From NCBI GenBank assembly GCA_938005475.1, contig CALLNY010000004.1, positions 1 through 33,979 on the forward strand: DNA of 33,979 nucleotides. Direction: 5' to 3'. The position numbers and the translations under genes were made by a program. Source of the stretch: an uncultured Bacteroidia bacterium. GTDB taxonomy: Bacteria; Bacteroidota; Bacteroidia; J057; CALLMJ01. Positions 18,573-31,755 of the stretch are shown piece after piece (position 1 is the stretch's first letter; the number at the start of each line of letters is the position of its first letter). The notes under the pieces are model-generated. The model was given only the letters and a program-made list of their open reading frames with translations. It was not told the origin of the DNA and did no database searches.

Positions 18573-21500
18573 ATGGATATTTTTCAAGCTATTGAACGAC
18601 GCATCTTGATTTTGGATGGTGCCATGGGTACCATGATTCAAAAATATAAACTTTCTGAAAAAGATTATCGTGGGTATCGCTTTACAGATTTTCATCGTGA
18701 TGTTAAAGGTAATAATGACCTACTTATTCTAACTCAACCAACTATTATTGAAGAAATTCACGAAGCCTATTTAAAAGCAGGTGCTGATATCATCGAAACC
18801 AATACCTTCAACGCTAATGCTATTTCTATGGCAGATTACGATATGCAGGATTTGGTCTATGAACTAAACTACGAAGGGGCTAGGCTTGCAAAAAATGTAG
18901 CATTAAAATATTCCACTCCTGAAAAGCCACGATGGGTAGCGGGCTCTATCGGTCCCACCAACAGAACCGCTTCGCTTTCTCCCGATGTTAATGACCCTGG
19001 CTATCGTGCTGTTACCTTTGATGATTTAGTCAAAGTGTATTACGACCAAGTAAAAGGATTAGTAGAGGGAGGTGCTGATTTGTTGTTAATTGAAACCATT
19101 TTTGATACCCTCAATGCAAAAGCCGCTATCTACGCTATTGAAGAGTTTACTATTCACACAGGTAAATCCTTGCCTATCATGATTTCGGTTACTATCACCG
19201 ATGCCTCAGGCAGAACCTTATCAGGTCAAACAACGGAAGCTTTCTGGAACTCTGTTAGCCATACCCAAAACCTATTCTCCGTAGGTATTAACTGTGCATT
19301 AGGAGCAAAAGATATGCGTCCTTATCTACAAATTTTATCTAAAATTGCTAATTGTTATGTTTCTGCACATCCTAATGCAGGGCTCCCCAATGCTTTCGGT
19401 GAGTACGATGAAACTCCTTTACAAATGCAAGAACAAATTCAAGATTTTTGCCAATCTGGCTTTGTCAATATTGTAGGTGGTTGTTGTGGTACTACCCCCG
19501 AACACATCCAAAAAATAGCAGAAATTGCCGCTCAATATCCCCCGCGAAAAATACCTGTCATAGAACCATATTTAAGACTATCAGGGCTTGAACCCGTCAC
19601 AATTTTCCCAGGCTCTAATTTTGTCAATATTGGAGAACGAACTAACGTAGCAGGTTCCCCTAAATTCAAGAAACTCATCATGGAAGGAAACTATGAAGAA
19701 GCATTAAGTATAGCAAGACAACAAGTTGAAGGCGGAGCCCAGATTCTTGACGTTAACATGGATGACGGGATGCTTAATGGGGAAGAAGCAATGGTTAAAT
19801 TCTTAAATTTGATAGCCGCAGAACCCGATATCGCTAAAATCCCTATCATGATAGACTCCTCTAAATGGACTATCATTGAAGCAGGATTAAAATGTTTGCA
19901 AGGCAAGGGGATTGTCAATTCAATAAGTTTAAAAGAAGGAGAAAAGACGTTTATTGAACAAGCCAAAAAAATTCGCCGTTACGGTGCGGCGGTGGTTGTC
20001 ATGGCTTTTGATGAAATAGGGCAAGCTGATACCTTTGAACGCAAAATAGCAATTTGTAAAAGAGCTTACGATATTCTGGTAAACCAAGTAGGTTTCCCTC
20101 CCCAAGATATAATTTTTGACCCCAACATCCTTACCATTGCAACAGGTATTGAAGAACACAACGAATATGGAAAAGCTTTCATTGAAGCTACACGCTGGAT
20201 AAAACAAAACCTACCTTTAGCCAAAGTAAGTGGAGGTGTAAGTAACATTTCATTTTCTTTTCGGGGTAACAACGTAGTACGGGAAGCTATTCATGCCGCT
20301 TTTCTGTATCATGCTATCCATGCAGGGTTAGATATGGGAATTGTTAATGCAGGACAATTAACCGTTTATGATGATGTACCCAAGGATTTATTGGAACTTG
20401 TTGAAGATGTTCTTTTCAATCGTAGACCTGATGCCACAGAAAGATTAGTAACTTTTGCAGAAACCATCAAAAATTCAGGGCAAGCCCAGTCTAAAACAGA
20501 AGAATGGCGAACCAAAGAACCCATAGAACGCCTTAAATATGCGCTTGTAAAAGGAATTGTAGATTATATTGAGCAAGATACCGAAGAAGTTAGAAAAAGG
20601 TATGCCACAGCATTAGAAGTGATTGAAGGACCTTTGATGGAAGGAATGAACATTGTGGGCGATTTGTTTGGTGAAGGTAAAATGTTTCTACCGCAGGTAG
20701 TCAAATCGGCAAGAGTGATGAAAAAAGCGGTTGCTTACTTAATTCCTTTTATTGAAGCAGAAAAAAAAGCCAGCGGCGTAAATAAAGCGGCAGGTAAAGT
20801 ACTTCTAGCCACCGTAAAAGGAGACGTGCATGACATCGGTAAAAACATCGTAGGCGTAGTGCTTGCTTGTAATGGTTACGAAATCATTGATTTAGGCGTC
20901 ATGATTCCTTGCGAAAAAATTTTAGAAACCGCTAAAAAAGAAAATGTAGACGTCATTGGTTTAAGTGGCTTAATTACTCCCTCGTTAGACGAGATGGTGC
21001 ATGTTGCCTCAGAAATGCAACGTCTAAATTTTAATATACCCCTCTTAATTGGCGGTGCAACCACTTCTAAAGCCCATACCGCCGTAAAAATTGAGCCCCA
21101 GTACCATAATAATGCTGTTATTCATGTTTTAGATGCTTCTAAATCTGTGACTGTCGTTTCTACACTCCTTTCTGATGACCAAAAAGAAAATTTTAAAAAA
21201 TCCATTAAAATCGAATATCAAAAATTAAGAGAAATTCACTCTAAAAAGAAACAACACAAAAACTACGTTTCCTTTGAAGAAGCACAAAACAATAAAATAA
21301 AAATTGATTTTTATCAAGAACCTACTCCTATACCCCGTTTTTGTGGTACCAAAGTAATTACTCCTAAAATTGAAGAAGTACGTCCTTTTATTGATTGGAC
21401 TCCGTTTTTTGCAACCTGGGAACTTAAAGGAAAATTTCCTGATATTTTTCAAAATCCTGAATATGGACAAGAAGCCCAAAAGTTATATGAAGATGCCAAT

Positions 21501-22232
21501 AAAATGTTAGATGAGTTCCAAAGATATGAATTCTTACAACTTAAAGGAGTTTTTGGTATTTATCCCGCTAATGCTGTAGGTGAAGATATTGAAGTCTATA
21601 TGGATGAAAGCCGTTCAACAGTATGGAAAAAGTTTCATTTCCTAAGGCAACAAATTGAAAAAGGTACCGGTTTATCACATTACAGTTTAGTAGATTTTGT
21701 AGCCCCAAAACAAACAGGGCAAAAGGACTATTTAGGAGGTTTTGCCGTGAATGCAGGTATTGGTTTAGAAAATATCGTTAAAAAATATGAACTAGACCAT
21801 GATGATTACCATGCTATTTTAGCTAAAGCTGTTGCAGATAGATTAGCAGAAGCTTTTGCAGAATATTTACATTTTTTAGTAAGAACCCAATACTGGGGCT
21901 ATAGTCAAGAAAAGTTTGATAATGAAAGACTTATAAAAGAAGATTATCAAGGGATACGACCTGCACCAGGCTATCCTGCCTGCCCTGACCATACCGAAAA
22001 AATTACACTTTTTGATTGGTTAAATGTCACTGAAAATACTGGTTTGATTTTAACCGAGAGCATGGCAATGTATCCTGCCGCCGCCGTAAGTGGTTTTTAT
22101 TTTGCTCATCCCAAAGCTCAATACTTCGGTTTAGGTGATATCGCCAAAGACCAAGTCCAAGATTACGCAAAACGTAAGAACGTAACCCAAGAATACGTAG
22201 AAAAGTGGCTTCAAACTCATTTAAATTATTGA
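18573..22232 (+). CDS. metH: Cobalamin-dependent methionine synthase
   Basis: A full-length 1219-residue four-module enzyme that transfers the methyl group of 5-methyl-tetrahydrofolate to homocysteine via methylcobalamin. Module 1 (about 1-320): DGAMGTMIQ, zinc ligands C241 (GINCALGA) and C304/C305 (GGCCGTT). Module 2 (about 345-620): pterin-binding, with [21 protein letters not shown] and [10 protein letters not shown]. Module 3 (about 645-890): cobalamin cap and Rossmann domain with D751-V-H753-D-I-G756, H753 being the lower cobalt ligand. Module 4 (about 920-1219): SAM-dependent reactivation domain, with [10 protein letters not shown] and [17 protein letters not shown]. The spacing of C241, C304, C305 and H753 matches the E. 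coli enzyme with a constant offset of 6. The stop overlaps the end of the convergent permease gene by 7 bases. Confidence 0.98.
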
Positions 22233-23911
22233 TTTTCAATCATATTTAATTTAGAATGTTTGAGACCATAACTAAAATAAAAAACAAGCCCCACTATCAG
22301 CCAAATAAAAAAATAAGCCCAATTTTTTTCTGCGATATGTGTCATCAGATAGAAACATGAAGTAATGCCCAATACAGGAATTAAAGAAAGTTTATATCGG
22401 AAGGTAAGATAAAATAAGGCTATTAACAAACAAAAGAATAAATAAGTAGGGACATGAAAATGTATGAAGGGCTCTAAAAAATTATTAGGGTTCATTTGAT
22501 AACTAAAAAACAAAAGGGTAAGCATAAGCGGAGTATAAATCCATTTTGCGTTGAGGTAAGGTACTTTAAATTTGGAGTTATACTGCTCATTTTTAAGTTG
22601 AAGAACTAAAATTCCACCACAAACCAAAACAAAAGCAAATAAAGTACCAACGCTGGTCAAATCCGTAACTTCGGTGAGGTTCATAAATAAAGCAGGGATA
22701 CCAACCACGAAACCTGTTAAAATCGTAGAAAACCCGGGAGTTTGGGTTTTAGGGTTAATTTTGCCGAAGATAGGGGGTAGTAACCCATCTCTACTCATAG
22801 ACATCCATATACGCGGTTGCCCCATTTGAAACACTAATAAAACACTTGCAATAGCAATCACAGCCGAAACAGCCACAATTTTAGCAACCCATTGTAAATG
22901 AACTTGTTCAAATACAAAAGCAAGCGGGTCTCCAACTCTTAAAGTTTCATAAGGGACCATTCCTGTCAGCACTAATGCAATTCCTATATACAAGATAGTA
23001 CAAATCAGCAAAGAATAAATCATTGCTTTAGGCAAATCCTTTTGGGGATTTTTACATTCCTCAGCGGCAGTACTTAAAGCATCAAAACCTATGTAAGCAA
23101 AAAAAACCGCAGAGACCCCTTTCAATACTCCTGAAATCCCATTCGGAAGAAAAGGGCTCCAATGGTCTGTATTCACATAAAAAGTTCCTATCACAATCAC
23201 CGCGATTATGACGGATATTTTTAAGGCTACCATTAAATTACTCGCTGTTTTAGATTCTTGTATTCCGATATAAACCAAATAAGTAATGATGGCAACAATA
23301 GAAAGCGCTGGTAAATCACAAATAATTTTTAATCCCCCGATTTGTGGAGCGTTGTTCCATGCGTTGTAACCTTCTAACAAATAACTTTCTATTTCGGATA
23401 ATTTTTTTCCACTTTGAACAAGGGATTCCACTTCGGTATGATAACGAGCGGCGCTTAAATAATCAATCGTAAAATATTCGGGAATTTTTAGTCCCCCAGA
23501 GTTTAATAAGGCAGTAAAATAATCAGACCATGAGATAGCAACCGCAATATTTCCTATGGCATATTCCACGATTAAAGCCCATCCTATAATCCAAGCTATC
23601 AATTCTCCAAAAGTAGCGTAAGCATAGGTATAAGCAGAGCCTGAAATAGGAACCATAGAAGCAAATTCTGCATAACATAAAGCAGAAAAACCACTAGCAA
23701 ACGCAGTAAAAATAAATAAAAATACTACACCCGGACCCCCATCCGCAGAAGCATTACCAATAGTAGCAAAAATACCTGCGCCTATAATAGCGGCAATCCC
23801 CAGCGAAGTTAAATCCCATACCCCTAAATTCTTTTTTAGGCTATGACCATCTGCTGTATTTTTTACGTCAGCTAAAATTTGGGATATTCTTTTCTTACGA
23901 AAAAGGTTCAT
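22226..23911 (-). CDS. APC-superfamily amino acid permease (cationic amino acid transporter-like)
   Basis: A 561-residue integral membrane protein with 12 or more hydrophobic segments. The N-terminal APC signature is [19 protein letters not shown] (about 34-52), with the GAGIF substrate-site motif on TM1, then [18 protein letters not shown] and [20 protein letters not shown] (TM2-TM3). [12 protein letters not shown]-like (here [20 protein letters not shown], about 267-286) is the TM6 motif. A longer external loop of about 50 residues around 148-200 follows TM4. It resembles YfnA/CAT-type exchangers or proton symporters, but the substrate is not fixed by sequence. Its ATG overlaps the glyA stop (ATGA), so translation is probably coupled to serine hydroxymethyltransferase; a serine/glycine or related substrate would fit but is inference. 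Confidence 0.9.
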
Positions 23912-25185
23912 GGTCTCGTATAAGGTAACGGATATTGCTTCATCAGCTCATGAACTTCTTTTTTTACACTGGATATAATCTTTTCATTATTAGCATGGGA
24001 AATAATTTTATCAATCCAGTTAGCGATATGTTCCATTTCTTGTTCTTTGAGCCCACGCGTAGTGATAGCGGCTGTCCCTAAACGTATTCCTGAGGTAATA
24101 AAAGGGCTTTGGGTATCAAAGGGCACCATATTTTTATTAGCTGTGATATCAGCGGCTACTAAGGCTTGTTCAGCGGCTTTCCCTGTTATGTTTTTATTCC
24201 GCAAATCAATTAACATCAAATGATTATCTGTTCCCCCTGAAATAATTTTGTAACCTTTTTGTATTAACGCATTTGCTAATGCTTGTGCATTTTTAATAAC
24301 TTGTTGGCAGTAAGTTTTAAATTCAGGTTGTAAGGCTTCGCCGAAAGCAACGGCTTTTGCGGCTATCACATGCTCCAAAGGTCCTCCTTGTGTTCCCGGA
24401 AACACAGCTCCGTCTAATACTTGGCTTAACATCTTAATTTCTCCTTTCGGTGTCTTCTCTCCCATAGGATTAGGAATATCATGACGTAACATAATAATAC
24501 CACCGCGAGGTCCACGTAAAGTTTTGTGTGTAGTACTGGTTACAATATGACAGTGTTCTAACGCATCATTCAATAAACCGGTGGCTATAAGCCCAGCAGG
24601 GTGTGCAATATCAGCTAATACTAATGCACCAATTGCATCAGCTATCGCCCTAATTCTCGCGTAATCCCAATCACGAGCATAAGAACTTGCCCCGCAAATG
24701 ATAAGTTTAGGTTTTTCTGATTCCGCAATTTCCTCCATTTGTTCATAGTCTATTAAACCCGTATCCTCCTTGACACCATAAAATAATGGAACATAAATTT
24801 TACCCGAAAAATTGACAGGCGAGCCATGGGTCAGATGACCACCATGAGCTAAATTTAAACCTAAAATTTTATCTCCCGGTTTAAGAACCGCTAACATGAC
24901 GGATGCGTTGGCTTGTGCCCCTGAATGTGGCTGAACGTTTGCCCAACTCGCTTTAAATAAACGCTTTAACCTGTCAATCGCTAAATTTTCTATCTCATCT
25001 ACTACCTGACAACCTCCGTAGTAACGTTTCGCAGGTAATCCCTCCGCATATTTATTCGTTAAACAGGAACCCATCGCATCTAATACCGCTTGACTAACAA
25101 AATTTTCTGACGCAATCAACTCGATACCTTCATTTTGTCTTTGGAATTCTTTCTCTATCAATGAAAAAACTGGATCTTTATACAT
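23908..25185 (-). CDS. glyA: Serine hydroxymethyltransferase
   Basis: A 425-residue PLP enzyme interconverting serine and glycine while charging tetrahydrofolate with a one-carbon unit. Landmarks: [16 protein letters not shown] (about 14-29), [15 protein letters not shown] (about 45-59), [15 protein letters not shown] (about 82-96), [35 protein letters not shown] with the Schiff-base lysine, and [15 protein letters not shown] near the end. The frame is open to 25239, but family alignment favours [14 protein letters not shown] at 25185; the extra 18 residues are hydrophobic and non-conserved. The upstream minus strand has a weak TAATTTTA promoter-like box. The stop overlaps the permease start by 4 bases. 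Confidence 0.97.
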
Positions 25186-25347
25186 CGTTTGCGATAAAAA
25201 CGTAAAATTAAAAGTTTTTTTAATAAAGATTACGAACAATTAGTTAAAAGTTATTATTGAGTTTGCACGTATAGTATTTAGCATTTCTTGACTTTACTTT
25301 GCTCACAATAACCTGGTAAAGATTTTCAATAAAATAAAGCATAAAAT

Positions 25348-25408: not shown

Positions 25409-25990
25409 TTATTCTTTTTCAGGCACTTCCAAAATATTTTCCTTAATCTCGGGGGATAAGTTCTCTTCTTTCAACTCGTTACCATTTTCATCTACAAAAG
25501 TGATAACACGAGTAGAATTTTGAACTAAAACAATACGGTAGGCGGATTTATTATTTTTAGCAAGATATATTTTTTGGGAACCCTGAATTTTATAACCAGA
25601 GAAACGTTTCAATACGGCATCTTTTATGTTGGCAGGTAAACCTTTTTCGCCTTGCAACATCGTCATGTGACCACGTACTTCGCCGTTTTCTGTAATTCGG
25701 CAATGTGTAATGTAACCCTCTTGATTTTTAAATCTTGCAATATAGACGACCGGTTTACTCATGCCTTTATTTCCTCCTTTATTAGGTCTTTCGTTAACAA
25801 GCCATTTATCTACTGTTGTTCCAGGAAACATCCTTTGCTGTGTATCTTTTACTAATTGTGGAACATTAGTTACTTCAATTAAAGCTTGATTGAGCTTATG
25901 TTGACCACGATTACCAGGCTGGGCTATAAGACCTTGAAATTCAAGCAATAGAATACTCACTACTACAATTAAAAAACCAAACTTTTTCAT
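25409..25990 (-). CDS. PepSY-like exported protein
   Basis: A 193-residue protein with a signal peptide (MKKFGFLIVVVSILLLEF, cleavage near GLIAQ). Starting at ATG 25990 avoids nine non-signal residues in the longer frame. The mature part contains a PepSY-like pattern: VPQLVKDTQQRMFPGTTVDKW (about 44-64, here split as VPQLVKDTQQRMF and PGTTVDKW), then YIARFKNQEGYITHCRI with strand-like repeats, then LPANIKDAVLKRFSGYKI and YRIVLVQNSTRVITFVDENG. Such repeats of about 40 residues, with a helix followed by strands, occur in small periplasmic Bacteroidota proteins. No catalytic residues are apparent. It follows the DUF4878-like lipoprotein by 42 bases in one operon. Function is unknown. Confidence 0.7.
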   Translation of the reverse strand: MKKFGFLIVVVSILLLEFQGLIAQPGNRGQHKLNQALIEVTNVPQLVKDTQQRMFPGTTVDKWLVNERPNKGGNKGMSKPVVYIARFKNQEGYITHCRITENGEVRGHMTMLQGEKGLPANIKDAVLKRFSGYKIQGSQKIYLAKNNKSAYRIVLVQNSTRVITFVDENGNELKEENLSPEIKENILEVPEKE

Positions 25991-26032
25991 ACAAAAATTT
26001 TTAGGTTCATTTGACAATTTTCATGCCAGTTT

Positions 26033-26446
26033 TTATTGGAACAAGCTTATTTTCACAAGCCATCTTCCATCTATCTTCTCAACTTTTAAGTTGTTCACTA
26101 TAACTTTGCTGTTCTTATCTTTTATTTCGCAAATTTTTTTATTTTCTCCATCTCCATCTATGCATACGCAAGTATAGGGACCATTCGCTTCGTATTCTTT
26201 TATTTTCTGGGCATTACTCTCCTGAAACTGTTTTTTATCTTCCTCATTTTTCAGGAATTTTTCCATAACCTGTTCCATGGACTCTAAAAATTTAATACTC
26301 TCAGGAGCGGCATACTCTTTTGCTTTTTTTAAATCTATATGAACTAATGCCTCATTAAATGCTAAAGCAACGCTTTCAGGTGTATTACTAGAACTACAAC
26401 TAATCAGAAAACAACTTGTTAATATAAATAATACGAAATTTTTCAT
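26033..26446 (-). CDS. DUF4878-like lipoprotein
   Basis: A 137-residue lipoprotein: signal MKNFVLFILTSCFLIS then Cys17, SSSN. Residues 21-60 (TPESVALAFNEALVHIDLKK, then AKEYAAPESIKFL) fit the DUF4878 pattern, a NTF2-like fold frequent in Bacteroidota lipoproteins. A charged helix (about 62-88) follows, then a Cys pair region (YTCVCIDGDGENKKIC) and a C-terminal strand (VNNLKVEKIDGRWLVKISL). It is the first gene of a two-gene operon with the PepSY-like protein. The promoter box is only 5 bases from the ATG, so the message may be almost leaderless. Function is unknown. Confidence 0.75.
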   Translation of the reverse strand: MKNFVLFILTSCFLISCSSSNTPESVALAFNEALVHIDLKKAKEYAAPESIKFLESMEQVMEKFLKNEEDKKQFQESNAQKIKEYEANGPYTCVCIDGDGENKKICEIKDKNSKVIVNNLKVEKIDGRWLVKISLFQ

Positions 26447-26478: not shown

Positions 26479-26628
26479 ATCTAAGATTCGCAAGTAAATA
26501 CAATATAAAAAATTCAGTAAGACACTCAAAAGAAGTACAGCAAGAAAATAAATTTTATGAAACAATCTTTACGTATTAAGAAAATTACGAAATTTGCGAA
26601 AATTTTTAGATTACTGCAAAATTATTCA

Positions 26629-29600
26629 ATGAATAAAGTTGATGTGCAAATTTATCCTATCAAAAAGCAATTTCATCTTCCTGAGATAGAACAGGAGGTA
26701 TTGGAATATTGGAAGAAATACCGTATTTTTGAAGAGAGTATACAACAAAGAGAGGGATATCCTGCTTTTAATTTCTATGAAGGACCTCCTTCTGCAAACG
26801 GCTTCCCCGGTATACATCACGTGATGTCTCGTACATTAAAAGACCTTTTTTGTCGTTATAAAACCATTAAAGGCTTTAAGGTCAATAGAAAAGCAGGTTG
26901 GGATACACATGGCTTGCCCGTAGAGTTACAAGTAGAAAAAAAACTAGGCATCACCAAAGAAGATATCGGAAAAACAATCTCTATCGAAGAATACAACAAA
27001 GCTTGTCGTGAAGATGTCCTTAAATTTAAAGATAAATGGGACGAACTCACTGAAAGAATGGGCTACTGGGTAGACCTCCAAAATCCTTATATCACTTTTG
27101 ACAATCATTACATAGAAAGCGTATGGTATATCTTAAAAAATTTCCATCAGCGAAATCTTCTTTATAAAGGCTATACCATTCAACCATATTCCCCCGCCGC
27201 AGGTACAGGTTTAAGTTCTCATGAACTTAATTTACCCGGATGTTACAAGTTAGTCAAAGATACTTCTTGTGTAGCACAATTTTTAGTAAAAGGAACCGAA
27301 AATACTTTCTTTTTAGCATGGACAACTACTCCTTGGACACTCCCCGCCAACAGTGCATTAGCCGTAGGAAAAGATATTCTTTATATAAAAGTACAAACCT
27401 TTAATCCCTACACCCATCAACCTATTACGGTTATCCTAGCAAAAGACCGTTTATATACTTATTTTTCTAAAGAGGGAGAAAATCAAGATTTGAATACCTA
27501 TGTGCCAGGACAAAAGATTATTCCTTTTCAAATTACTGAGCATCTTACTGGGAAAGATTTAGTAGGTATTCGTTACGAACCTTTATTTGATGACTGGGCA
27601 AGAACTTATCCTGATGAAGCTCAAAAAGCCTTTCGCGTCATTATTGGGGATTTTGTTACAACCGAAGACGGTACTGGAATAGTCCATATTGCTCCTACTT
27701 TTGGGGCTGATGATATGCGTGTAGCTAAACAAAATGACATTCCCGCTGTGCTTTTTGATGGTGAGCCTATTGTAGATAAAAAAGGTAAATATATCCCTCA
27801 AATCAAGCTATTTGCTAATCGCTACGTAAAAAATTATACTAATGACCCTAACTACCAAAATCTAGACGTAGATATTTCCGTTTACCTAAAACAAAATAAT
27901 CGTGCTTTCAAAATAGAAAAATACGAACATAACTATCCGCATTGTTGGCGTACTGATAAACCTATTTTGTATTACCCATTAGAATCTTGGTTTGTAAGAA
28001 CTACAGCTTTTAAAGAACGGCTTGTTGAACTCAATAAAACCATCCATTGGAAGCCTCAAAGTGTAGGAATAGGGCGTTTTGGAAATTGGTTAGAAAATTT
28101 AGTAGACTGGAATTTAAGCCGTTCCCGTTATTGGGGAATTCCTTTACCTATTTGGATTGCAAGCACCAATAAACAGTACGCTATAGGCTCTATCCAAGAA
28201 CTTCAAAATGTAGGATACATAATTCCTGAAAAATGCCCCGATTTAGAAACGGAAATCGCAAAGCAACCTCTATTTGAACATGAAAATTTATTGAAAACAA
28301 ACCCTCAGTCTATTCGTACTAAAGCCAAATACCTCGAGTTTTGTATGAAAAACGCCAATATTGGGCATACTCCTAACTCTACCGTGGTTGTTCAGGATTG
28401 GCTGAAAAAAGGTTGGCTGAAAAAAGTGTCTGATTTATCAAATGAACAAATTGATTTACATAAACCTTTTATTGACTATGTAGTTTTAATTCCGAATACT
28501 TCATGTGAAGAAGTTTTTGTGAGGGAGAGTGATTTAATAGATGTTTGGTTTGATAGCGGTGCAATGCCCTACGCACAAGTACACTATCCCTTTGAAAATG
28601 AAAAAGATTTTGATAAAGTTTTCCCCGCAGACTTTATTGCTGAAGGAATAGACCAAACCCGTGGATGGTTTTTTACTCTACATGCTATTGCAACCCTTTA
28701 TAAAGATTCTATAGCCTTTAAAAATGTCATTGCCAATGGTCTATTGCTAGATAAAGACGGTATTAAAATGTCAAAACGCTTAGGGAACGTCGTAGACCCC
28801 TTTGAAACTTTATCTAAATACGGAGCAGATGCTACCCGTTGGTATATGATGGAGAATACTCCCCCTTGGGAAAATCTCAAATTCAATCTGGATACTTTAC
28901 AGGAAACTATACGTAAGTTTTTTGGTACTTTGTTTAATACTTACCATTTTTTTGCTTTATATGCGAATTTAGATGGTTTTACGACCCAATCGGAGTTCAT
29001 TCCTTACCTTAAACGCACTGAATTAGACCAATGGATTATTTCGTTGTTGAACAGTTTAATTATTAAAGTTGAAACTTCATTAGAGGACTATGACCCCACT
29101 ACTGCCGCAAGAGCTATTCAAGAGTTTGTAATTGAGCAATTATCTAATTGGTACGTTCGTTTATCACGCAGAAGGTTCTGGAAAGGACAGATGAACCAAG
29201 ATAAACTTGCCGCATATCAAACTTTACACGAATGTCTGTTGAAAGTAAGCCAGTTAATGTCTCCTATTGCTCCTTTTTCTGCGGAATGGTTGTATAAATC
29301 CTTGACTTACTCCTCTTGGCAAGATAAAAATTCCGTTCACATTGCTTTATTTCCAAAAGCACAATCCCAACTTATTCAGAAAGATTTAGAGGAGCAGATG
29401 GAAATTGCCCAAAAAGTATGTTCTTTAGTCCATTCTATTCGTAAAAAACATCAATTACGAGTACGTTTACCATTATCCAAATTATTAGTTCCTGCTCAAA
29501 ACGAACAAATGAAAATAGCTTTACAAAAAGCGAAAGATTTAATTCTCTCAGAGGTTAATATTAAAGAACTAATTATTCCCAATGATAAGGATACTACCAT

Positions 29601-30123
29601 CATCAAAAAAATAAAGCCTAATTTTAAATTGCTAGGTCCGAAATTAGGCGCACAATTAAAATCAGTACAACAAGCAATTGAAAAGCTTTCACAAGAAGAA
29701 ATAAGAAAATTAGAAAAAGGCCAGGCAATTCCTATAGAAGTGAATGGTAGTATTTATGAATTACAACCTAGCGAAGTAGAGATTTTCAATCAGGACATCC
29801 CAGGTTGGGCTGTAGTTTCCGAAAATGCTATAACGGTTGCAGTAGATTTACAAATTACGAAAGCATTAGAAAATGAAGGTATTGCAAGAGATTTTGTGAA
29901 CAGAATCCAAAATTTACGAAAAGAATTAGATTTTGAAGTTACAGATAAAATTATAATTAAAATACAGTTACAAAAAGAATGGAAAGAAGCTCTTGAAGTA
30001 TGGAAGAACTACATTCAAACAGAAACTTTAGCGAGTGCAATGGAATGGGTTAATAGTTTGGAAAATGGGTATGAAATTGAAGTAAATAATATTATTGGTA
30101 AAGTAACAATTATAAAAATTTAA
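26629..30123 (+). CDS. ileS: Isoleucyl-tRNA synthetase, type 2 (eukaryote-like)
   Basis: A 1164-residue class I synthetase charging tRNA-Ile. The frame opens at 26557, but the ATG at 26629 (MNKVDVQIYPIKK) fits the family, and a promoter-like GAAATTTGCG lies between. It is type 2: GWDTHGLPVELQVEKK, YTIQPYSPAAGTGLSSHELN region, editing domain with TTTPWTLPANSA and HIAPTFGADD, and WNLSRSRYWGIPLPIW. The catalytic KMSK motif is K713-MSK-R717, as in type 2 enzymes. The HIGH motif is replaced by G61-I-H63-H64 (context SANGFPGIHHV). The anticodon-binding domain runs from about 830, and a C-terminal DUF5915-type domain from about 990 to 1164. The C-terminal zinc finger of bacterial type 1 enzymes is absent. 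First gene of ileS, dksA-like, lspA, with gaps of 5 and 3 bases. Confidence 0.96.
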   Translation: MNKVDVQIYPIKKQFHLPEIEQEVLEYWKKYRIFEESIQQREGYPAFNFYEGPPSANGFPGIHHVMSRTLKDLFCRYKTIKGFKVNRKAGWDTHGLPVELQVEKKLGITKEDIGKTISIEEYNKACREDVLKFKDKWDELTERMGYWVDLQNPYITFDNHYIESVWYILKNFHQRNLLYKGYTIQPYSPAAGTGLSSHELNLPGCYKLVKDTSCVAQFLVKGTENTFFLAWTTTPWTLPANSALAVGKDILYIKVQTFNPYTHQPITVILAKDRLYTYFSKEGENQDLNTYVPGQKIIPFQITEHLTGKDLVGIRYEPLFDDWARTYPDEAQKAFRVIIGDFVTTEDGTGIVHIAPTFGADDMRVAKQNDIPAVLFDGEPIVDKKGKYIPQIKLFANRYVKNYTNDPNYQNLDVDISVYLKQNNRAFKIEKYEHNYPHCWRTDKPILYYPLESWFVRTTAFKERLVELNKTIHWKPQSVGIGRFGNWLENLVDWNLSRSRYWGIPLPIWIASTNKQYAIGSIQELQNVGYIIPEKCPDLETEIAKQPLFEHENLLKTNPQSIRTKAKYLEFCMKNANIGHTPNSTVVVQDWLKKGWLKKVSDLSNEQIDLHKPFIDYVVLIPNTSCEEVFVRESDLIDVWFDSGAMPYAQVHYPFENEKDFDKVFPADFIAEGIDQTRGWFFTLHAIATLYKDSIAFKNVIANGLLLDKDGIKMSKRLGNVVDPFETLSKYGADATRWYMMENTPPWENLKFNLDTLQETIRKFFGTLFNTYHFFALYANLDGFTTQSEFIPYLKRTELDQWIISLLNSLIIKVETSLEDYDPTTAARAIQEFVIEQLSNWYVRLSRRRFWKGQMNQDKLAAYQTLHECLLKVSQLMSPIAPFSAEWLYKSLTYSSWQDKNSVHIALFPKAQSQLIQKDLEEQMEIAQKVCSLVHSIRKKHQLRVRLPLSKLLVPAQNEQMKIALQKAKDLILSEVNIKELIIPNDKDTTIIKKIKPNFKLLGPKLGAQLKSVQQAIEKLSQEEIRKLEKGQAIPIEVNGSIYELQPSEVEIFNQDIPGWAVVSENAITVAVDLQITKALENEGIARDFVNRIQNLRKELDFEVTDKIIIKIQLQKEWKEALEVWKNYIQTETLASAMEWVNSLENGYEIEVNNIIGKVTIIKI

Positions 30124-30128
30124 AGATT

Positions 30129-30548
30129 ATGGAAGAAAAAACGTATTATACAGCAGAAGAGTTACAGGAGTTCAAAGAATTGATTCTAAACAAATTGGAG
30201 AAGGCAAGAGAAGAATATAAGTCGCTTCAGGAAAGTTTAAGAGAAACGACAGAGAATGCCGCTGATGGTTATAATATCACAGAATATGGAACAGATACAC
30301 AAGAAAAAGAACAGTTAGAATTATTCTTGATGCGTCAAGCAAAATTCATTGACTCTTTAGAAAGGGCATTAGTAAGAATAGAAAATGGTACTTATGGCAA
30401 ATGTAAAGTAACAGGAAAATTAATTCCAAAAGAAAGATTGAGAGCCGTTCCTCATACAGAAATTAGCATTGAAGCAAAGTTAGCTCAAAAGAAAACTCCT
30501 AATATCCAACATTCTACGGAGTATCATCAGGAAGAATCAGAAGATTAA
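30129..30548 (+). CDS. TraR/DksA-family protein with degenerate zinc finger
   Basis: A 139-residue protein. An N-terminal coiled coil (about 9-85: LQEFKELILNKLEKAREEYK and RQAKFIDSLERALVRIENG) leads into the DksA-type C-terminal motif GTYGKCKVTGKLIPKERL (87-104) and LRAVPHTEISIEAKLAQ. Classical DksA has four zinc cysteines; here only C92 remains, the second position being T95. The coil tip (ENAADGYNITEYGTDT) lacks the DxxDxA pair that acts on RNA polymerase in E. coli DksA. Similar Cys-poor copies next to lspA occur in Bacteroidota. It may still bind RNA polymerase, but its function is unproven. Located between ileS and lspA in a tight operon. Confidence 0.88.
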   Translation: MEEKTYYTAEELQEFKELILNKLEKAREEYKSLQESLRETTENAADGYNITEYGTDTQEKEQLELFLMRQAKFIDSLERALVRIENGTYGKCKVTGKLIPKERLRAVPHTEISIEAKLAQKKTPNIQHSTEYHQEESED

Positions 30549-30551
30549 TTC

Positions 30552-31172
30552 ATGAATAAGAAACTCATAGCCATCGTAGTTTCAGTGGTATTATTAGACC
30601 AGGCGGTCAAGTTGCTTGTTAAATTGAATATGCAGTTGGGCGAGGAGATTAAGGTCCTAGGAAATTTTTTTAAAATTCATTTTACAGAAAATCCTGGTGC
30701 GGCTTTTGGGGTTACTTTAAGTAATCTATTCGCAGGTTTAATATCGGATACCACTGCTAAAGCGCTTTTAAGTGTTCTATCAGTGATATTAGTTTGCGGC
30801 ATTGTCTATTATTTATACCAAATCAAGGACTACAAAACGGCTTTACCTTACTGGGTTGCTTTGATACTAGGCGGAGCCATCGGCAATATTATAGATAGAT
30901 TGTTCTACGGTATCTGGTTTGCTCCCATGAACGATTATGAAGGTGGATTCTTGCATGGTAGGGTTGTAGATATGTTTTATTTCGATATTTACCAAGGAAT
31001 TTTACCAGATTGGATACCTATTTGGGGAGGTACTTATACCGCATTATGGCCAATTTTTAATATTGCGGATACCGCAATCTCTATAGGAATTATTGCTATC
31101 ATTGTTTTTCAGAAAAGCTTATTCCCTGAAAAAAACAAAAATATTCAAACAAAAAAAAATTTGTTATTATAA
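30552..31172 (+). CDS. lspA: Lipoprotein signal peptidase (signal peptidase II)
   Basis: A 206-residue inner-membrane aspartyl protease that removes the signal peptides of lipidated prolipoproteins. Signatures: VVLLDQAVKLLVK (about 13-25), FTENPGAAFG (about 49-58), LILGGAIGNIIDR (about 103-115), GRVVDMFYFDI (first catalytic Asp) and FNIADTAISIG (second catalytic Asp). Four transmembrane helices are evident. It is slightly longer than E. coli LspA because of an insertion between GRVVD and FNIAD (IPIWGGTYTALWP, typical of Bacteroidota) and a basic tail. Last gene of the ileS operon; the predicted lipoproteins at 10367, 10534 and 26033 would be its substrates. Confidence 0.96.
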   Translation: MNKKLIAIVVSVVLLDQAVKLLVKLNMQLGEEIKVLGNFFKIHFTENPGAAFGVTLSNLFAGLISDTTAKALLSVLSVILVCGIVYYLYQIKDYKTALPYWVALILGGAIGNIIDRLFYGIWFAPMNDYEGGFLHGRVVDMFYFDIYQGILPDWIPIWGGTYTALWPIFNIADTAISIGIIAIIVFQKSLFPEKNKNIQTKKNLLL

Positions 31173-31212: not shown

Positions 31213-31755
31213 ATGAAAAGTTTCTTTGTAGCAGTATTGGCATTAGTAATAATTACATTAACTCTAAATGCACAAGGTTTTTGGACACCTATAGATGAAA
31301 CAGAAGTTCCCAAAGAAATTGTAGATAAATTTCATGAGCAACATCCTAATGCAAGAAATACGCACTGGGGTTTACGCAAAAGCGGTAAAACAGAACTTTA
31401 TAAAGTTACAGCAGTAGAAGGTGGGCATCACGTTAAAGCTAGATATAACAAGCATGGTACAGAATTAGAAAAAATTCATGCTACTCAATTAGAAAAAGTT
31501 CCGGATCCTGTTAAAAAAGTTATCGAAGAACAAATTAAGCAAGGCTGGGATATAATTCGTATTTATCATGCTTTTAAACATAATTCAAAAGATAAAGACG
31601 AAGATAAAGAAAATGATGATGATGATGATATTTATAAACTTTTTTTTGAAAATCATAACCATCACCGTAAATATCTACACCTAGAAGTAAACGTAAAAGG
31701 AAAGATAATTGAAAAAGATTATAAAAGACATTCAAAACACGAAGTACATTATTAA
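31213..31755 (+). CDS. PepSY-like exported protein with His/Asp-rich C-terminus
   Basis: A 180-residue protein with a signal peptide (MKSFFVAVLALVIITLTLNA, cut near AQG). Two PepSY-like repeats: VPKEIVDKFHEQHPNARNTHW (split here as VPKEIVDKF and HPNARNTHW) with YKVTAVEGGHHVKARYNK, and VPDPVKKVIEEQIKQGWDI followed after an insertion by YLHLEVNVKGKIIEKDY. The insertion (about 118-160) is charged: KDKDEDKEN, five Asp codons in a row at 31615-31629 (GAT repeated five times), then FFENHNHHRKYLH; the end is RHSKHEVHY. The clusters of His and Asp could bind divalent metals, but no known metal-site motif is present. It shares its general design with 25409-25990. The stop overlaps the next gene's start (TAATG). 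Confidence 0.65.
   Translation: MKSFFVAVLALVIITLTLNAQGFWTPIDETEVPKEIVDKFHEQHPNARNTHWGLRKSGKTELYKVTAVEGGHHVKARYNKHGTELEKIHATQLEKVPDPVKKVIEEQIKQGWDIIRIYHAFKHNSKDKDEDKENDDDDDIYKLFFENHNHHRKYLHLEVNVKGKIIEKDYKRHSKHEVHY

Follow-up and report, generated by a model that had tools for sequence, protein, structure and literature searches.

A type 2 isoleucyl-tRNA synthetase with the swapped GXHH signature in a Bacteroidia bacterium, a form shared by all relatives read across the phylum

The ileS gene described here, from a member of the class Bacteroidia, almost certainly encodes the housekeeping type 2 isoleucyl-tRNA synthetase (IleRS2) with the GXHH signature, a known form inherited from a common ancestor. 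The gene lies in a stretch of 33,979 nucleotides from an uncultured organism, referred to below as the window. To judge by the sequences of its relatives, GXHH appears to be a condition of this essential gene that the whole phylum has inherited, and it does not mark this organism out as specially resistant. The insensitivity of the enzyme to mupirocin is very likely by analogy with published enzymes, and homology would predict an intrinsic mupirocin resistance of the cell.

The gene and its product

The open reading frame at 26557-30123 (+) encodes a full-length isoleucyl-tRNA synthetase, with a score of 964.6 bits against the TIGR00392 profile (cut-off 621.4). In Pfam searches the protein shows a catalytic domain of class I together with an anticodon-binding domain and the DUF5915 end. 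The mechanically called frame begins 24 codons ahead of Met25, the ATG at 26629. In L068, a relative with 84% identity, the matching ATG aligns with Met25 and is preceded by a stretch that contains stops, so that Met25 is the likely start of ileS. The features of the locus are collected in Table 1.

Table 1. Features of the ileS locus, in coordinates of the window
Feature	Position	Strand	Basis
ileS, type 2 isoleucyl-tRNA synthetase, 1164 aa from Met25 (likely start)	26629..30123	+	TIGR00392; PF00133, PF08264, PF19302/DUF5915; start via L068
GIHH, swapped class I HxGH signature	26809..26820	+	codons GGTATACATCAC; place set by alignment to solved IleRS2 structures
Stretch with insertion of about 50 residues, ORF residues 551-624	28207..28428	+	anchor spacing compared with relatives
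KMSKR, second class I signature	28765..28779	+	KMSKR also in 96 of 129 relatives
DUF5915 C-terminal domain, ORF residues 993-1186	29533..30114	+	PF19302, E 6.9e-54
DksA/TraR-type zinc-finger protein, next after ileS	30129..30548	+	PF01258
lspA, lipoprotein signal peptidase	30552..31172	+	PF01252, TIGR00077 over cut-off

With regard to its type, the protein is nearer to the solved IleRS2 enzymes than to IleRS1, with 870-857 bits to the Priestia megaterium IleRS2 and 755 to the Thermus IleRS, against 308 or fewer to IleRS1 in matches to PDB sequences, and it carries the DUF5915 end of type 2 (eukaryote-like) enzymes. The original prediction of a type 2 enzyme is thus borne out both by this end and by the best solved relatives. 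The canonical HXGH enzymes of P. megaterium and Thermus thermophilus (8c8v, 1ile) share its fold and domain order and are its best sequence matches in the PDB, yet they have HVGH in place of GIHH, and mupirocin inhibits them with a Ki of about 1 uM or less.

The placement of GIHH at the class I HxGH position, with the first and third residues exchanged, had been proposed from the sequence and is confirmed by alignment to solved IleRS2 structures. The stretch PPSANGFPGIHHVMSRT aligns over PPTANGLPHVGHALGRT of the wild-type P. megaterium enzyme (8c8v/8c8u), which puts GIHH on HVGH, and also over PPTANGLPGVHHALGRT of 8c8w, the published GVHH mutant of the same enzyme. The mutant is the best PDB match, with 869.7 bits compared with 861.9 for the wild type. 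With Gly first and His third, aligned on HVGH and on the GVHH of 8c8w, the protein belongs by sequence to the G/AXHH group of IleRS2. The numbering given earlier, G61-I-H63-H64 and K713-MSK-R717, is exact when counted from Met25. An HxGH elsewhere in the chain, which would have spoken against this placement, is ruled out, as a scan of the whole protein finds no such string.

Compared with the published G/AXHH enzymes of Streptomyces griseus and Deinococcus radiodurans, the protein has the same swap of first and third residues at the same place, the same type 2 architecture and the same housekeeping role. It differs in having GIHH where the D. radiodurans enzyme has ALHH, in its KMSKR and in a short genus-level insertion. 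This insertion is the sole local peculiarity of the enzyme, a minor extra that is common to L068 only. About 50 extra residues (around SIRTKAKYLEFCMKNANIGHTPNSTVVVQDWLKKGWLKKVSD) are placed between one half of the catalytic core and the other; the spacing between the flanking anchors is 100-102 residues here and in L068 (102 in the latter), against 36-53 in the 23 other aligned relatives, and the stretch is left unaligned to solved IleRS2.

The swapped signature across the phylum

In the 30 relatives from the same genus, order and class, all motifs read are GXHH. A wider survey covered 296 genomes across the phylum with DNA patterns for PxANGxPGxHH and PxANGxPHxGH. The first pattern matched 192 of the 296, the sampled members of the same class among them, and, as both patterns demand the ANG context, it missed the other 104 on that account. 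The second matched none of the 296, with the same ANG limit and no separate positive control, although the protein sequence of the P. megaterium enzyme does fit it. Thirty of the 104 non-matching genomes, chosen to cover families without a match, were read directly and all contain PPTVNGxPGxHH. The misses are therefore a limit of the pattern, as GXHH stands behind TVNG in the non-matching genomes that were sampled.

At the level of individual loci, 129 of the 139 tabulated in relatives gave GXHH at once. The remaining 10 either started inside the gene or, in the case of L077, had a SANAQ context variant, and all proved to be GXHH once the missing parts were read. Together with one further genome (G010) this amounts to about 140 sequences, partly redundant, from Bacteroidia and other sampled families of the phylum, all with GXHH and none with HXGH. 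The surveyed records that bear names include Carboxylicivirga, Paludibacter, Niastella, Chitinophagaceae, Flavobacteriales, Prevotellaceae and Saprospiraceae. Because the motif is present in all relatives read, GIHH in this enzyme is neither chance nor a sequencing error; for the same reason, the distinctiveness that had been implied for it does not hold. KMSKR is ordinary as well, being the commoner second signature among relatives (96 of 129, with KMSKS in 28 of 129).

Outside the class of the window, the residues that precede the motif are often TVNG, compared with SANG or TANG, and mostly occur with KMSKS. TVNG was seen in families f32, f33, f34, f39, f41, f45, f49, f50, f53, f64 and f66 (loci L038-L066 and L162), and makes a tidy lineage marker.

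Mupirocin and the G/AXHH enzymes

Of 163 prokaryotic IleRS2, 86 carry the G/AXHH motif, which was seen in no IleRS1 and is tied to mupirocin hyper-resistance of up to 10^3-fold (Brkic et al. 2023, PMC10485003). For instance, mupirocin inhibits the D. radiodurans IleRS2 (DrIleRS2, with ALHH) with a Ki of 6.6 mM, which goes down 823-fold on change to HVGH, and GVHH put into the P. megaterium and Thermus enzymes raises the Ki about 200- to 430-fold (PMC10485003). In the structural account of these enzymes, a shift of the helix tip in IleRS2 allows the third His to assume the catalytic position of the first, and this His clashes with mupirocin (PMC10485003). The statement in the original prediction that GXHH type 2 enzymes are extremely resistant while remaining active agrees with this work.

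If the same account applies here, the ring nitrogen of the third-position His would sit where the first His of HxGH normally acts, as deduced from Brkic et al. 2023 (PMC10485003). It would replace the function of the first His, so that isoleucine activation would still work, and its bulk would clash with mupirocin, and inhibition would be expected to require very high concentrations of the drug (sub-mM to mM). The swap itself would have been passed down from a common ancestor and would not be an adaptation of this organism. The degree of resistance is not readable from the motif alone, because the Ki of published G/AXHH enzymes, natural and engineered, varies widely, from 35 uM to 6.6 mM (PMC10485003). 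Furthermore, the tolerance or sensitivity of a cell can have other causes, such as uptake or efflux.

The literature searched held no direct Ki or MIC report on mupirocin tolerance in Bacteroidota; a culture study that predicts a rise in Bacteroidaceae diversity under mupirocin (PMC13085705) offers weak support. Bacteroidota were not found by name in the main texts of the two IleRS papers searched, which may therefore leave such a phylum-wide count unmentioned.

Copy number and gene neighbourhood

The genome is a draft of 2.63 Mb in 105 contigs, with a completeness of 100% and a contamination of 0.26%. A profile search of the whole genome gave a single ileS match over the cut-off, and the remaining matches are weak and partial and fall in long frames such as other class I synthetases typically have. 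This gene is the sole ileS of the genome, with a small doubt left by the draft assembly. The MupA and MupB models, which describe acquired mupirocin-resistant IleRS2 of staphylococci, give this protein 790-794 bits against a curated cut-off of 1900, and no MupA-type gene over the cut-off and no strong match to the MupA model were found elsewhere in the genome. A second ileS or a MupA-like gene is thus rejected, with none over the respective cut-offs. The score of about 790 bits reflects membership of the same broad type 2 family. Unlike MupA and MupB, the enzyme falls far under the cut-off, is the only copy and lies in a conserved chromosomal neighbourhood.

This neighbourhood is the order ileS-dksA/traR-lspA. 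In 56 of 80 named relatives (66 of the 80 have at least 1.3 kb of downstream sequence) ileS is directly followed by a DksA/TraR gene, and lspA was found downstream of ileS by tblastn in at least 25 relatives. Profile searches and tblastn gave no sign of a mobile element in the ileS neighbourhood.

Descent and its alternatives

An emergence or acquisition of GXHH within this lineage, as an adaptation to mupirocin or a similar compound, would accord with the published view that IleRS2 gained the motif on at least two occasions, perhaps under pressure from antibiotics (PMC10485003). However, GXHH in all relatives read across the phylum, together with the conserved neighbourhood devoid of mobile-element signs, largely refutes such a lineage-specific origin, and the low MupA and MupB scores also speak against it, which makes it very improbable. 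Selection of the swap by mupirocin in this lineage is unsupported, because the swap is common to the whole group examined. Even less probable, if only slightly, is a specialised or non-canonical resistance copy whose housekeeping counterpart was missed among the 105 contigs. A draft leaves room for such a gap, but the completeness and contamination values, the single match over the ileS cut-off and the lack of strong MupA-model matches argue otherwise, as does the presence of the same IleRS type in relatives.

There is equally little to be said for a defect, in which the swap would impair catalysis or editing. In its favour, HxGH enzymes normally depend critically on the first His, and kcat falls by as much as about 10-fold in canonical IleRS2 mutated to GVHH (PMC10485003), but the natural ALHH enzyme DrIleRS2 is fully active, with a kcat of 45.5 per s (PMC10485003), and the GXHH form is kept throughout the phylum and in the only ileS of this genome.

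An inherited housekeeping GXHH enzyme remains the preferred explanation, and this IleRS would be one more natural case of the published mechanism. Somewhat beyond this, we consider it probable, with considerable reserve, that GXHH has become fixed throughout the phylum-level group (Bacteroidia and the other families sampled) and that the entire phylum would be enzymatically hyper-resistant to mupirocin by descent, as a by-product and not as a response to the drug. The phylum-wide count is useful in showing that the swapped signature is the norm here; its occurrence in a single genome is therefore uninformative about special resistance. The group also offers a large number of enzymes, most of them untested, with which to ask if mupirocin ever selected the swap.

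Other features of the locus

The window contains no tRNA gene. Upstream of ileS, at 25409-26446 (-), two small proteins are encoded, one of 202 aa without a Pfam match and one of 137 aa that matches DUF4878 weakly; in the named relatives, neither was found near ileS. At 31213-31755 (+) lies a gene for a 180-aa protein without a Pfam or NCBIfam match, found among the named relatives only in L068. A branched-chain or cationic amino-acid permease-like transporter is encoded near ileS at 22226-23911 (-), where it adjoins the gene for serine hydroxymethyltransferase (23908-25239) and faces metH (18573-22232).
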